Part shown: positions 5,239-11,933 of the stretch, in pieces | Layout of the letters: every line of letters begins with the position of its first letter | Position numbering within the stretch: the stretch's first letter is position 1 | NCBI GenBank assembly: GCA_016937995.1 | Contig: JAFGVM010000037.1 | Location: forward strand, 1-64,000 | DNA from: Candidatus Delongbacteria bacterium | GTDB lineage: Bacteria > UBA4055 | Direction: 5' to 3' | DNA length: 64,000 nucleotides | Translations under genes and position numbers: made by a program | Notes under the pieces: model-generated | Told to the model about the DNA's origin: nothing | The model's database searches: none | The model's input: only the letters and a program-made list of their open reading frames with translations

Positions 5239-5883
5239 ATGAAAACTTTCTTTAAAAACATCTTATCCTCTTTGTCTTCCTTTTTATTTCCGGCATCTTG
5301 CCTTATATGTGAAGAGTATCTGCATGATGAACTTTTTGTATGCAGATCCTGCCTATCGAATTTAAAACTTCACAAGAATACTGAACCGGAATATATCGCA
5401 GTTTTTCAATATGATGATAAAATAAAAAAATTGATATTTGAACTTAAATACAATTCTAAACCGGAGATCGGTGAAATATTAGGTAAAGAGGCTGCAAAAC
5501 ATATTTCAGATCTTTTCCAGAACAGTAATTCTATATTATTTCCTGTTCCTTTACATAAAAAAAGGATCAAAAAAAGAGGATATAACCAGAGTCTTTATAT
5601 AGCAAAAGGATTCTCGCAGACCCTTAAATTACCGATATATGAAGATATGATAGTGAGAAGTAAAAATAATGTTTCCCAGACTACAGTTAAAAGTTCGAAC
5701 AGAAAAAGTAATGTCAGTGGTATATTTAGGATCAATACATCATCGATTGATAAAAATATTTTATTTATTGTTGTGGACGATCTGATCACAACACAGGCAA
5801 CGACAAAAGAGATATATAGAATTTTAAAAGAGAACGGGTATAACAATTACTTCGGACTGTGTATAGCTACATCGGGCAGCTAG
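5239..5883 (+). CDS. ComF-family phosphoribosyltransferase
   Basis: Cys motif CLICEEY...CRSCL, KKRGYNQSLYIAKGF, VVDDLITTQATTKE (PRPP-like motif). Confidence 0.85.
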   Translation: MKTFFKNILSSLSSFLFPASCLICEEYLHDELFVCRSCLSNLKLHKNTEPEYIAVFQYDDKIKKLIFELKYNSKPEIGEILGKEAAKHISDLFQNSNSILFPVPLHKKRIKKRGYNQSLYIAKGFSQTLKLPIYEDMIVRSKNNVSQTTVKSSNRKSNVSGIFRINTSSIDKNILFIVVDDLITTQATTKEIYRILKENGYNNYFGLCIATSGS

Positions 5884-7361
5884 AACCTATAAGAATATCT
5901 CACGTGGACCATTGATCCTGAAAAACCTTTATCCCCGGGTATCCCGATAGTGAATTGAACCTCGTTCGAACTTTTTACATAAGAAAGTATTACTCCATAA
6001 CCGTATTTTACTGAAAGATCATTTAGTTTTTTTATTTTACCCTGATCAGAATTATAACCTGCGATATCCAAAAATGAACCGAAAGCAAGATCACTTAGAG
6101 GAGAATAAATCACCTCAATTTCAGAGATCAGTTTTATATCAGTTAAAAAACTTTCGTCACTGTATCCTCTTAATCCGTATACACCACCGAATACGATCTT
6201 ATTGAAATTATCAATCTTATCCGAGCTTAAGATCTGCTCATACACACTGTTACTTATAATATATATACCATTGAAATTATTAAATACCTTTTTGAACTTC
6301 AATTCAACTTCAACAGCTGAATAGGTAGAATCGTTCTCTATAAATTCTGTATTCACACTGCTGAAACCTGCAGATATTGAATATCCCCCATATCTTGGGA
6401 TTATCATTTCATCATACAATGTCGAGTATTCAAGTCCACCTTTATAGGTATTAGTAACCACATCTGAAATTATCTCGGTATTTGCTGAATCGGGATAAAT
6501 ATTTTCATGATTGTAGCTGACAACTATATCTGTCTCGGGATCAATGCTCCAGTCAGAGTATATCTCATAATTCCTTCTAAGAAAAAGCAGATTTTTATTT
6601 TCCTGCTCAAAAGTAATTCTATTGGAGACCGGTAAAGAAAAAGTGAATGGTTCACGATACATAAAATGAAATTTTTCATTATTGTTTGCTTTCTTTGTCC
6701 ATTCGATACCGGCTTTTCTATTTGTGCCCAATATGTTATCTGCTGTAAACTGACCACTACCGTAAAATTCAGAACTTTCATCCGAATTATTTACTCCGCC
6801 AATGAACATTCCTTTGAAATATTTTTTTTCTTTTAAAACTATTTTTAATCCCGTTTTATTATTTTTACTCACTAAAGAATATTCCGGCTTCGAGTAGAAC
6901 AACCTAGTTTTATACAGATAATTTATTGCATTTTTAACTTCATTTTCATTGAACTTTGAATTCAGTATCAATCTTGATTCTTTGATCAGGTAATTTGCAT
7001 CACAGATATTGTTACCGTCAAATTCGATAAAGGATATCCTGACATACTCACCTGAATTTATTTCTAATTCACAAACTGTATTTCCATCATACTCCTTAAC
7101 ATCTTTGATCTTTACTTCACACAAAGGGAACCCTGATCTTGAATAATGATCAAGAATCCTTTGTATTGTTGTTTCTATATTTTCCTTGTCGGTATAATTA
7201 CTCCTATTTGACAGCTCAACCTGCTCTAGAACAGTATTGAGAGGAAAATACATTTTCCCGGTGAATTTATAGCTTATTGACGTTGAATAAATAGTATTTG
7301 ATAAAATAAATAAGAGTAAAACTACAAAAAATTGCGATTTAAAGATAAATTTAATTCTCAA
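5880..7361 (-). CDS. Outer-membrane POTRA/Omp85-like (BamA/ShlB-type) protein
   Basis: Signal peptide, POTRA-like repeats, C-terminal barrel ending VHVRYSYRF. Confidence 0.75.
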   Translation of the reverse strand: MRIKFIFKSQFFVVLLLFILSNTIYSTSISYKFTGKMYFPLNTVLEQVELSNRSNYTDKENIETTIQRILDHYSRSGFPLCEVKIKDVKEYDGNTVCELEINSGEYVRISFIEFDGNNICDANYLIKESRLILNSKFNENEVKNAINYLYKTRLFYSKPEYSLVSKNNKTGLKIVLKEKKYFKGMFIGGVNNSDESSEFYGSGQFTADNILGTNRKAGIEWTKKANNNEKFHFMYREPFTFSLPVSNRITFEQENKNLLFLRRNYEIYSDWSIDPETDIVVSYNHENIYPDSANTEIISDVVTNTYKGGLEYSTLYDEMIIPRYGGYSISAGFSSVNTEFIENDSTYSAVEVELKFKKVFNNFNGIYIISNSVYEQILSSDKIDNFNKIVFGGVYGLRGYSDESFLTDIKLISEIEVIYSPLSDLAFGSFLDIAGYNSDQGKIKKLNDLSVKYGYGVILSYVKSSNEVQFTIGIPGDKGFSGSMVHVRYSYRF

Positions 7362-7365
7362 TTTT

Positions 7366-8442
7366 TTAGTTCTCCATTATTAATTTGATGATATTTCCTA
7401 TATCATTTACTTTCTGCTTTGGTATTTCATCATATTTTTGCGCTTCATGAATATCAGTCTTTAAATTAAGGTCTTTCTGTGTCACATAATGAAATAATTT
7501 ATTTTTTTTGTAATATCTTGCCAAATATTCCTGCTCTGTCTGACCCGGTGTTGGAATAAATAATGCTTTTTTGCCCATTGCTGCTATTTCCATTACTGTT
7601 GAGTATCCCGGTCTTGATATTATCATTCCGGCACCTTTTATCATCCCGGAAATTTTATTTCTTGGTAAATGTGAGTAGTATTCAATATCATTATTCGACT
7701 CATAACTGTTTATTTCTGTTTTACCGAGTATAACTGTTTTTTTACCTTCGATATGTTTTATCTGTTCACTTATTATTTTCTCAAAGTTTGTTCTCTGTGG
7801 TTCAGGACCTGATATCAAAACTAAATAATCTGAAGATAAGCTTTCACAGTTCATTGTATCGGACAACAAACCGATATATTCAAGTTTTGATCTGTCGATC
7901 AGTGAAAATTCATGTGACAATTCTCCTGAAAAATTCGGTTCACCTTCAAGATCAGGGATAAGGATCTTCTTGAATTTACTAAAATAGAATTTATTGAAAT
8001 ACTCTGATAAAAATTCAAACCATTTTAATACTGCAGGCAGCTTAAATTTTAACTGATGTGTAATCAAATAAGAAGGAATCCCTTTTGAATATACTCCGTA
8101 CCTGTTATCTGAAATTATTATATCAATATTTTTTTCTTTAACTAATCTGTCTGTGAATGAGTTTTCTTTCCATAGACCCAACAATATTTTTGGTAATTGA
8201 AAGGCTAAGGACAGGAATAAAAAATTTGCATTATTAACATATTTTATAGAATAGTCAGGATAATCAATTACTTCTATCTCAGGAAATTCCGACTTCAATA
8301 ACATTAATGATCTGCCTGTGGAAAGAATGACAACCTCATTGTTCTTTATCAATTCCCTTATTATCGGTAATGATCTTGTAGAGTGCCCAAGACCCCAATT
8401 TAATACAGCATATAGTATTTTTTTTCTCAAATCTTTCCCCAT
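7366..8442 (-). CDS. Glycosyltransferase, MurG/GT28-like
   Basis: ILYAVLNWGLGHSTRSLPI N-terminus; GMIISRPGYSTVMEIAAMGKKALFIPTPGQTEQEYLA. Confidence 0.85.
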   Translation of the reverse strand: MGKDLRKKILYAVLNWGLGHSTRSLPIIRELIKNNEVVILSTGRSLMLLKSEFPEIEVIDYPDYSIKYVNNANFLFLSLAFQLPKILLGLWKENSFTDRLVKEKNIDIIISDNRYGVYSKGIPSYLITHQLKFKLPAVLKWFEFLSEYFNKFYFSKFKKILIPDLEGEPNFSGELSHEFSLIDRSKLEYIGLLSDTMNCESLSSDYLVLISGPEPQRTNFEKIISEQIKHIEGKKTVILGKTEINSYESNNDIEYYSHLPRNKISGMIKGAGMIISRPGYSTVMEIAAMGKKALFIPTPGQTEQEYLARYYKKNKLFHYVTQKDLNLKTDIHEAQKYDEIPKQKVNDIGNIIKLIMEN

Positions 8443-8518: not shown

Positions 8519-8592
<74 letters not shown>

Positions 8593-8596
8593 CAAA

Positions 8597-8646: not shown

Positions 8647-10416
8647 TCACTTATTTTTCAGTATCTTATTTATATCTTTTTTTCTGTCAAGCTCATGAAG
8701 TATCCTGTGAACAGTTTTAAAATTTGAACTGCTCTTGTAATTATACAAAGCCACCATATTTTTCTTCTCACTGATCTTTTTGTTGACTTCTACTTCACCC
8801 CGTTCAAAAGGATCTTTACCAGTGAAATAATGGCATGCTGAAATTGTCATTGGCAACGGCAGAAATGGAGTGATCTGATTAATTGAAAGATCAAATTTTA
8901 TCAGTTCAAGAACATTATCTACAGTATCGTTATAATTCTCTCCAGGATGTCCTGCGAGTACATTGACCTTTAGTTCATGCTTCTTAGAATACTCTCCCAC
9001 CCGTTTTAAAAAGCTTTCAATGAACTCAACAGTTGCCTCATACTTCTGCTGTCCGGTCAAGTCATTGATCCTATCTTTTGAATTGAACAAATTCACTATA
9101 CCGTAAGTATTAACTCTTTTCATAACATACTCTTTGAAAGCATCATTGTCGCTGAGTAATAAAGCTACATCCACATCAGATGCATAAAAATTATTTCTTA
9201 TATTTTTCAGAATATCAACTTCCTTCGATATTTCGATCATTGAATTAGTACCTTTTGAAAGGTTTGAACATACCGTCGGTATTATACATGATAGTCTGTC
9301 ACATTTTTTACATTTTGATTCTGATCTTAAGCTTATTCCAAAGTAATTTGATCTTATACCGTAAAAATTGTTTACCATCTTATTAAAAACCTTGGTATTA
9401 GTGAAATAAATTATGTTACGTAAAATTGAACTTTTGGATCTGGATGAAATAAATCTTCCCTGAGTAAATATGTCCTGTGTGTAAGATAAACTGTTAATAG
9501 TTCCCCTGTGCGTGGGTATCTGATCTTTCATCCTGTTATATGCGGGAATATCCTCTTTATATTTTGGATGAGGTTTTAAAGTAAAACTTGTACTGTAAAT
9601 TGAGTCGATATCATTAGTTTCTAGAGGATATCCTGGTCTGTTGATTACAAGATAACGGTTCAGAACCCGTTGAACCAGTATTTCTGAATTATACGGGTTT
9701 TGATTTGAATGCAGTATTTTTTCGTGCTCAATGAATACGTCTTTATTTTTTTCAACTTCAAGAAATTCAGGAAGCATTCTGAATTTCTTTTTTTGAGGTG
9801 GTTCGTTAGAAATATATGCGATGCCGTCAAGAGAATGTAAATTTTTAAATTCTTTAGAGATCTTTATCTGGTCTGCTAAACTAACAAGATTATATTCCAT
9901 ATTTCCGTACAATAAGACATCTGCTTTTGAGTCAAAAAGTACTGGTTTTCTGATCTTGTCAGACCAAAAATCGTAATGGGCAGCCATTCTGCCTGCAGCC
10001 TCAACTCCTCCTACCACTATTTTTGAGTTCTTGTACATTTCCTTGATCTTGTTACAGTATCTTATCAATGCTCTGTCAGGCCTATTTATCTTTTTATTCC
10101 CGGGTAAATACTGATCTGATGTCTTAAGTTTCATATAAGGTGTATAATTGGATACCATTGAATCTTCTTCACCTGTTATTACCAGAAAAAACAATCTCGG
10201 TTTACCAAGTATTTTCCAATCCTCATCCTCATTAACCCTGGGCATATCGAGAACAGCGACTTTATAACCGTTCTTATCTAGAAATTTCCCGCAGACCGCT
10301 ACAGAAAAATTTGGATGATCAACATAAGCATCTCCTGTCACTATGATAATATCAGCCTGTTTCCATCCCAGCTTTTTAAATTCATTCGAATTATTCGGTA
10401 AAAATCCTTTTAACAT
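8647..10416 (-). CDS. YgiQ-family (UPF0313) protein lacking the radical-SAM cysteine motif
   Basis: RPDRALIRYCNKIKE, VVGGVEAAGRMAAHYDFWSD, CDRLSCIIPTVCSNL are YgiQ hallmarks; CX3CX2C position reads TINSLSYT. Confidence 0.88.
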   Translation of the reverse strand: MLKGFLPNNSNEFKKLGWKQADIIIVTGDAYVDHPNFSVAVCGKFLDKNGYKVAVLDMPRVNEDEDWKILGKPRLFFLVITGEEDSMVSNYTPYMKLKTSDQYLPGNKKINRPDRALIRYCNKIKEMYKNSKIVVGGVEAAGRMAAHYDFWSDKIRKPVLFDSKADVLLYGNMEYNLVSLADQIKISKEFKNLHSLDGIAYISNEPPQKKKFRMLPEFLEVEKNKDVFIEHEKILHSNQNPYNSEILVQRVLNRYLVINRPGYPLETNDIDSIYSTSFTLKPHPKYKEDIPAYNRMKDQIPTHRGTINSLSYTQDIFTQGRFISSRSKSSILRNIIYFTNTKVFNKMVNNFYGIRSNYFGISLRSESKCKKCDRLSCIIPTVCSNLSKGTNSMIEISKEVDILKNIRNNFYASDVDVALLLSDNDAFKEYVMKRVNTYGIVNLFNSKDRINDLTGQQKYEATVEFIESFLKRVGEYSKKHELKVNVLAGHPGENYNDTVDNVLELIKFDLSINQITPFLPLPMTISACHYFTGKDPFERGEVEVNKKISEKKNMVALYNYKSSSNFKTVHRILHELDRKKDINKILKNK

Positions 10417-10577: not shown

Positions 10578-11933
10578 TTGTTGAGATTAATATACAACGC
10601 ATTTATCATACCTGTTCTTTACGTCTTTACTATTTTAGCAGCTGTCTTTAGTAAAAAAATTTACAAATCTCTGCAAGTGAGAGAAAATATCCTTAAAACT
10701 TTGACTAAGAAAAAGATAAGGCTTAATCCTTACAAAAGAACAGTACTATTTCATTGTTCTTCCATGGGTGAATACAAACAAATATTGCCAATAGTGAACA
10801 ACCTAAGACAAAGTTCAGTTGATTATAATATTGTACTTTCTCTGTTCTCGCCTTCGGTTTATGAAAATATCAACAGAGAAAACGAACTGTTTGATATTAT
10901 TACCTACATCCCATTCGACTTTTTTATGCAGACCCGAAATTTCATTAATATAATCAACCCTCAGCTTGTTATAATTTCCAAGCATGATGTTTGGCCCAAT
11001 TTCATATGGGAACTTGCACAAAAAGATATATCAATCTATCTTGTAAATGCTCTCTTTGCCGATGATACAAAAATGGACAAATGGTACATTAGATTCTTCT
11101 TCAGGTCAATATTTTCAAAATTATCCGGGATCATAACCATCAATGAAAAGCACAGGCAAAGATTTTTAAATATTTTTCCATATCCCGAAAAACTTTATAT
11201 CAGTGGAGATTCCAGGTTTGATACCGTTATCTTTGAAGCGGAGAACTCAGCCGGTATCGATCTGCTGAACAGGATTGAAACGAATGAACATGTTTTTGTA
11301 GCAGGAAGTACCTGGCCTGTTGCTGAAACCATCATAATCGAAACATGGAATAAGATCAAAAATAAATATCCTGATGCTTTCCTGATAATAGTTCCCCATG
11401 AAGTTGATAACGAACACATTTATAAAATTGAAACCATATGCCAGGAAAATAATCTTAAAAGCATTGTTTACACTGAATTGACAACAAGCGAAGATATACT
11501 GAAATACGACTGTATGATAGTGGATGTTATAGGGATATTATCAAAAGTTTACCGTTATGCGAATGTCGCTTATGTTGGTGGAGGTTTTTCTAAAAGTGGA
11601 CTGCATTCAGTAATCGAACCGGCGGTTTTTGGAATTCCGGTTGTTTTCGGTCCTAATCTTGATAAATCACCTGAAGCTCAGGAAATGAAGTACATGGATT
11701 GCGGGAATGATTTCAGCAGTTCCAGTGAACTTTATAAATCAATTGATACTTTATGGTCGGACAGAGACCTTTATCGGAAAATATGTGAATTGAGTACTGA
11801 ATTCATTAATAATCATAAAGGTGCGACAGATAGGATCGTGGACGTTATAACAGGGAATATTACCAAAAATGAGCTGGAAAAAGTAAAATCACTGACTGAA
11901 GAGGAAATTGAAGAATTGAGCAGATTCCAATAA
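10578..11933 (+). CDS. waaA: 3-deoxy-D-manno-octulosonic acid transferase
   Basis: VLFHCSSMGEYKQ, ISKHDVWPNFIWE, AGSTWPVAE, AYVGGGFSKSGLHSVIEPAVFGIPVVFGPN. Confidence 0.92.
   Translation: MLRLIYNAFIIPVLYVFTILAAVFSKKIYKSLQVRENILKTLTKKKIRLNPYKRTVLFHCSSMGEYKQILPIVNNLRQSSVDYNIVLSLFSPSVYENINRENELFDIITYIPFDFFMQTRNFINIINPQLVIISKHDVWPNFIWELAQKDISIYLVNALFADDTKMDKWYIRFFFRSIFSKLSGIITINEKHRQRFLNIFPYPEKLYISGDSRFDTVIFEAENSAGIDLLNRIETNEHVFVAGSTWPVAETIIIETWNKIKNKYPDAFLIIVPHEVDNEHIYKIETICQENNLKSIVYTELTTSEDILKYDCMIVDVIGILSKVYRYANVAYVGGGFSKSGLHSVIEPAVFGIPVVFGPNLDKSPEAQEMKYMDCGNDFSSSSELYKSIDTLWSDRDLYRKICELSTEFINNHKGATDRIVDVITGNITKNELEKVKSLTEEEIEELSRFQ

Follow-up and report, generated by a model that had tools for sequence, protein, structure and literature searches.

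A YgiQ paralogue without radical-SAM cysteines in Candidatus Delongbacteria, probably kept for its N-terminal domain and a four-cysteine site

The window analysed here, a stretch of 64,000 nucleotides of Candidatus Delongbacteria DNA, carries at positions 8647–10416 (minus strand) a gene for a YgiQ paralogue that lacks all three cysteines of the radical-SAM motif. The loss of canonical radical-SAM chemistry is well supported at the sequence level, and the reading we hold with moderate confidence is that the protein is a pseudo-radical-SAM YgiQ paralogue, kept for its N-terminal Rossmann domain and a putative four-cysteine metal site and working without SAM cleavage. Its clade has given up catalytic residues and yet evolves under purifying selection, which makes it a pseudoenzyme under selection, the constraint on the window gene itself being read from residue conservation only.

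The window gene and its former radical-SAM site

The gene consists of a single open frame of 589 codons with an ATG start (coding part 8650–10416, stop codon 8647–8649). PF08497 (Radical_SAM_N) matched residues 5–297 with an E-value of 1e-99, placing an N-terminal domain of predicted Rossmann fold at 9526–10404 (minus strand). Against the full-length equivalog model TIGR03904 SAM_YgiQ the window protein scored 487 bits, passing the curated cut-off of 462, and the full-length Cys-less relatives scored 353–449 bits, under that cut-off. Because its score exceeds the cut-off of the current NCBIfam model, the window protein would be named a radical-SAM enzyme. PF04055, the radical-SAM Pfam domain, gave no match at E ≤ 1 in the window protein and was undetected in four Cys-less copies. 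It did match the normal YgiQ of the window genome (E 3.6e-8), an intact copy with CX3CX2C on a different contig. A PDB sequence search with the single window protein returned no related structure, and a defence-system library gave zero matches to it.

At the former CX3CX2C site (9478–9501, minus strand) the window protein reads HRGTINSLSYTQD, with T-INS-L-SY-T in the place of the motif, and it aligns there without gaps to the normal YgiQ of the same genome as well as to 37 normal YgiQs outside the phylum. The three cysteine positions are occupied by T306 (9501–9499, ACT), L310 (9489–9487, TTA) and T313 (9480–9478, ACA), each codon being two to three nucleotides away from the nearest Cys codon. 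The KIAPEH segment (approximately residues 440–449; 9070–9099, minus strand) is likewise replaced. The first-pass annotation of this DNA had proposed a YgiQ-family protein, open over 589 codons, in which C..C..C had become T..L..T without gaps at 9478–9501 and the KIAPEH-type region had been replaced. The PF08497 and TIGR03904 scores bear out the family, the frame and the exact motif coordinates hold, the minus strand is added here, and the KIAPEH replacement proved to extend throughout the Cys-less clade. The objection it had raised, that another alignment might place a CX3CX2C elsewhere, is answered by a search of the entire protein, in which no such motif was found.

That all three motif cysteines are gone also stands, with the refinement that it completes a loss that began earlier. 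Seven relatives read HRGC-LND-xxx-SQ at this site, the first cysteine alone remaining, and in G001 and G002, the members that diverge most, the motif cysteines are wholly gone; the copy in G003 ends at a contig edge ahead of the motif. The simplest reading is that two cysteines were lost early and that the first was lost again on the window lineage and on the G001/G002 lineage. Among the core members the window copy has degenerated furthest, with zero motif cysteines and a long branch.

Distribution, history and gene neighbourhood

The phylum was represented by 13 genomes, all in one family, and the eleven Cys-less sequences are a small sample. The Cys-less paralogue was present in 11 of the 13 (one, G003, incomplete) and normal YgiQ, at least partly, in 12, G011 holding a fragment only. 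In G008 the normal YgiQ (L025, C34:17582–19065) is split over two frames, probably by an assembly frameshift. G004 (95% complete) is the sole member of the phylum with a Cys-less copy and no detected normal YgiQ, reflecting either loss or an assembly gap. The Cys-less gene is missing from the assemblies of both congeners of the window genome, G011 and G012. This absence was treated as uninformative; the G012 contig has its first gene at the adjacent WaaA and so gives no evidence of loss.

In a maximum-likelihood tree of 59 rows, from which the motif columns were left out, all Cys-less copies formed one branch with a support of 100/100. Monophyly of the Cys-less clade, which the first-pass annotation had suggested examining, is thereby established, and the intact paralogue that it had suggested looking for is the copy on the other contig of the window genome. 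Within the Cys-less clade the branching of the genomes matches that of the normal copies, G001 and G002 parting first, then the window, then the others, which points to one old duplication followed by vertical inheritance. A profile of the C-terminal half of the clade reached at most 129 bits in about 277 other genomes, compared to 376–483 bits in the clade core. A GTDB-wide pattern scan recovered seven loci, all from the genomes already counted, using patterns that would miss divergent members like those of G001 and G002.

The surroundings of the gene are shared as well. In eight genomes the Cys-less gene is followed downstream by a GT28-like glycosyltransferase (in the window a MurG/GT28-like protein, Glyco_trans_1_3 and MJ1255-like, at 7369–8442, minus strand) and, where the contig allows, by a BamA-like gene (here coding for a short outer-membrane protein, BamA-like and with a single detected POTRA, 5883–7361, minus strand). 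On the opposite side a WaaA–HK–Lon–EngB block was found wherever the contig reaches, which in the window starts with a divergent Kdo transferase (WaaA-like; 10578–11933, plus strand) and continues with the histidine kinase, Lon and EngB. A lipoprotein-like gene stands just upstream in most genomes and is missing in the window and in G008. Conserved gene order, not an operon, explains this neighbourhood best. Converging with the 3' end of the Cys-less gene is a tRNA-Met (CAT; 8519–8593, plus strand), found at the corresponding position in all eight core genomes with a contig extending that far; it was considered as a possible substrate and given little weight, because the whole gene order is conserved. 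The tRNA itself has a mismatched first acceptor pair and a GGG/CCC anticodon stem, which is initiator-like. In G001 and G002 the neighbour is selD instead, placed directly downstream of the Cys-less copy (L066:8195–9230 and L067:8298–9330, both minus strand), and these selD genes contain an in-frame TGA (RAAG-U-AGKL) that likely encodes selenocysteine.

YgiQ was detected in 98 of the 386 genomes sampled, 86 of these outside the phylum, where CX3CX2C was intact in 37 of the 38 loci whose motif could be read. The exception, G021, reads VRGCSAPPAVCPN at the motif, has no second YgiQ copy and has mostly lost the Cys cluster; it keeps 38 of the 41 near-invariant residues of the N-terminal domain. 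Its congener G392 shows the same state at 75% identity (dN ~0.17, dS ~1.2), and the other motif-read members of their class carry normal YgiQ. The degenerate single-copy genes of the two genomes (L087/L140 on G021:C18 and L141 on G392:C24) share the form VRGC-SAPPAV-CPN and a kept N-terminal domain. This motif loss is independent of that in the phylum clade. Since the radical site has been lost recurrently and the N-terminal domain kept, we see here the strongest hint that this domain may have a function of its own.

The distribution also bears on whether the Cys-less protein might be a partner subunit that heterodimerises with normal YgiQ and aids its catalysis, in the way that Dph2 supports Dph1. 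The two paralogues occur together in 10 of the 11 genomes with a Cys-less copy, and the Dph1–Dph2 enzyme, although of an unrelated family, offers a precedent among radical-SAM-type paralogues, the Dph2 cluster being described as regulatory and not catalytic (PMC11048331). However, G004 carries the Cys-less copy alone, as G021 and G392 do their degenerate copy, wherever both genes are present they lie on separate contigs, and evolution is faster in the Cys-less copy than in normal YgiQ. Such a YgiQ partnership is hypothetical, and we consider it unlikely.

Retained residues, predicted fold and selection

Residue retention was scored at 84 positions near-invariant among 47 normal YgiQs, a residue counting as kept when present in at least seven of the eight core Cys-less members. 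By this measure the core kept 35/41 residues in the N-terminal domain, 11/20 in residues 301–365, 4/4 in the Cys cluster and 6/19 beyond residue 390, the losses including two or three motif cysteines, the KIAPEH segment and SGxR, among others. The cluster, C369-X2-C372-X4-C377-X5-C383 (9268–9312, minus strand), is the downstream group of cysteines whose persistence had been claimed at first pass, and it is indeed there: all eight core members have the full pattern, and the four cysteines are also present in G001 and G002, with a longer last spacing.

Their invariance in every Cys-less member covering the region could mean that C-X2-C-X4-C-X5-C took over the binding of the SAM-cleaving [4Fe-4S] cluster, making the protein a non-canonical radical-SAM enzyme, and non-canonical cysteine ligation does exist in Dph1–Dph2 (PMC11048331). 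Most normal YgiQs, however, carry three or four of these cysteines in addition to CX3CX2C, which makes the cluster an inherited second site. Other motifs of the catalytic half have been lost too, and constraint on it has dropped compared to the N-terminal half. A takeover of this kind seems to us improbable.

The fold of the protein was modelled from an alignment of nine sequences, one of them a normal YgiQ, a row that improved the model (mean pLDDT 70, pTM 0.75) and on account of which the model is not independent evidence for an intact barrel. An earlier model from eight rows (pLDDT 54) was set aside as too poor. Most of the N-terminal domain was confidently predicted, and the model was poor at the former active site, where residues 303–324 and 343–391 were uncertain. 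The best matches among solved structures were the B12 radical-SAM methylases MgmA and TokK, and MiaB, led by MgmA (PDB 9ccb; E 4e-10, TM 0.60 on the target). MgmA likewise ranked first when solved structures were searched with a profile of normal YgiQs, the match lying over the motif region. MgmA is a B12-dependent radical-SAM glutamine methylase of MCR that holds cobalamin on a Rossmann domain and a [4Fe-4S] cluster through three cysteines (PMC11796369). In the model, the window protein shares with MgmA and TokK a Rossmann domain followed by a partial TIM barrel; it differs from MgmA in missing the three [4Fe-4S]-binding cysteines, and the link to cobalamin is one of fold resemblance only. 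A similar two-domain fold is predicted in common with the methylthiotransferases MiaB and RimO, although the sequence relation is weak and the radical-SAM motif is missing in the window protein.

Purifying selection, which the first-pass annotation had left to be checked, was strong in the two closest Cys-less pairs (dN/dS 0.088 and 0.066; 0.083 in a comparable normal pair). These pairs are relatives of the window gene, neither congener assembly having the gene. Of the residues that do not vary among the other seven core members, the window protein for its part keeps 102 of 128 in the N-half and 46 of 68 in the C-half. The distribution of constraint is flipped between the paralogues: the N-half was the more identical in 40 of 45 Cys-less pairs compared to 5 of 45 normal pairs, the C-terminal catalytic half being the more conserved in the other 40 normal pairs, counts that are not independent since pairs share branches. 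The flip was present at both shallow and deep distances, and its exceptions were confined to one subgroup (G010/G008 versus G005, G006 and G007).

A decaying pseudogene would fit the long branch of the window copy, its lack of a close relative and its rank as the most degenerate core member. The 589 open codons, the residues it retains, the dN/dS of 0.07–0.09 in its relatives and the old vertical inheritance speak against this, and decay was rejected on the dN/dS values and the depth of the clade as highly improbable. An assembly or sequencing artefact, conceivable in that the source is MAG data, and named at first pass as a possible refutation, is hardly credible, because ten further genomes share the paralogue, independent MAGs hold it at the same locus, and the changed codons are two to three nucleotides from Cys codons.

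A possible role without radical chemistry

We thus return to the pseudo-radical-SAM paralogue as the favoured explanation. An ancient YgiQ duplicate would have lost the ligands of the SAM-binding [4Fe-4S] cluster and the neighbouring active-site motifs, so that SAM cleavage would not be expected, and the rest of the protein would keep its use. The parts in use would be the N-terminal Rossmann domain, predicted to resemble in fold the cobalamin domain found in B12-dependent radical-SAM methylases, and the four-cysteine site, a putative metal site. Most likely the protein would bind a ligand or substrate recognised by the YgiQ family and serve the same pathway in a binding or regulatory capacity, with no need for a normal YgiQ partner. 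What had been called catalytic repurposing at first pass we infer rather than observe, and the new function is putative. The protein remains a YgiQ by full-length homology, PF08497, the downstream Cys cluster and the TIGR03904 cut-off. It differs from normal YgiQ in lacking CX3CX2C, KIAPEH and a detectable PF04055, in its flipped constraint and in being a second copy beside the normal one. No precedent for degenerate radical-SAM or YgiQ pseudoenzymes was found in the open-access literature that was searched.

The co-expression of E. coli ygiQ with translation genes (PMC6412132), together with the resemblance to MgmA, MiaB and RimO, suggests a macromolecular target, perhaps the translation machinery. 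A bolder and more tentative proposal gives YgiQ two functions, one of them radical-free and residing in the N-terminal Rossmann domain, whether binding of cobalamin, substrate or RNA or a catalysis so far unrecognised. If true, the Cys-less paralogue would be a natural separation-of-function protein, at least two lineages having dropped the radical half and kept the N-terminal domain.

A selected, phylum-wide paralogue without the radical-SAM site implies that part of YgiQ is useful without radical chemistry. The Cys-less copy probably does a non-radical job and could reveal the use of the remaining YgiQ protein. It offers a natural catalysis-free comparison for this widespread and poorly understood family, and directs attention to two parts of it, the N-terminal domain and the Cys cluster.
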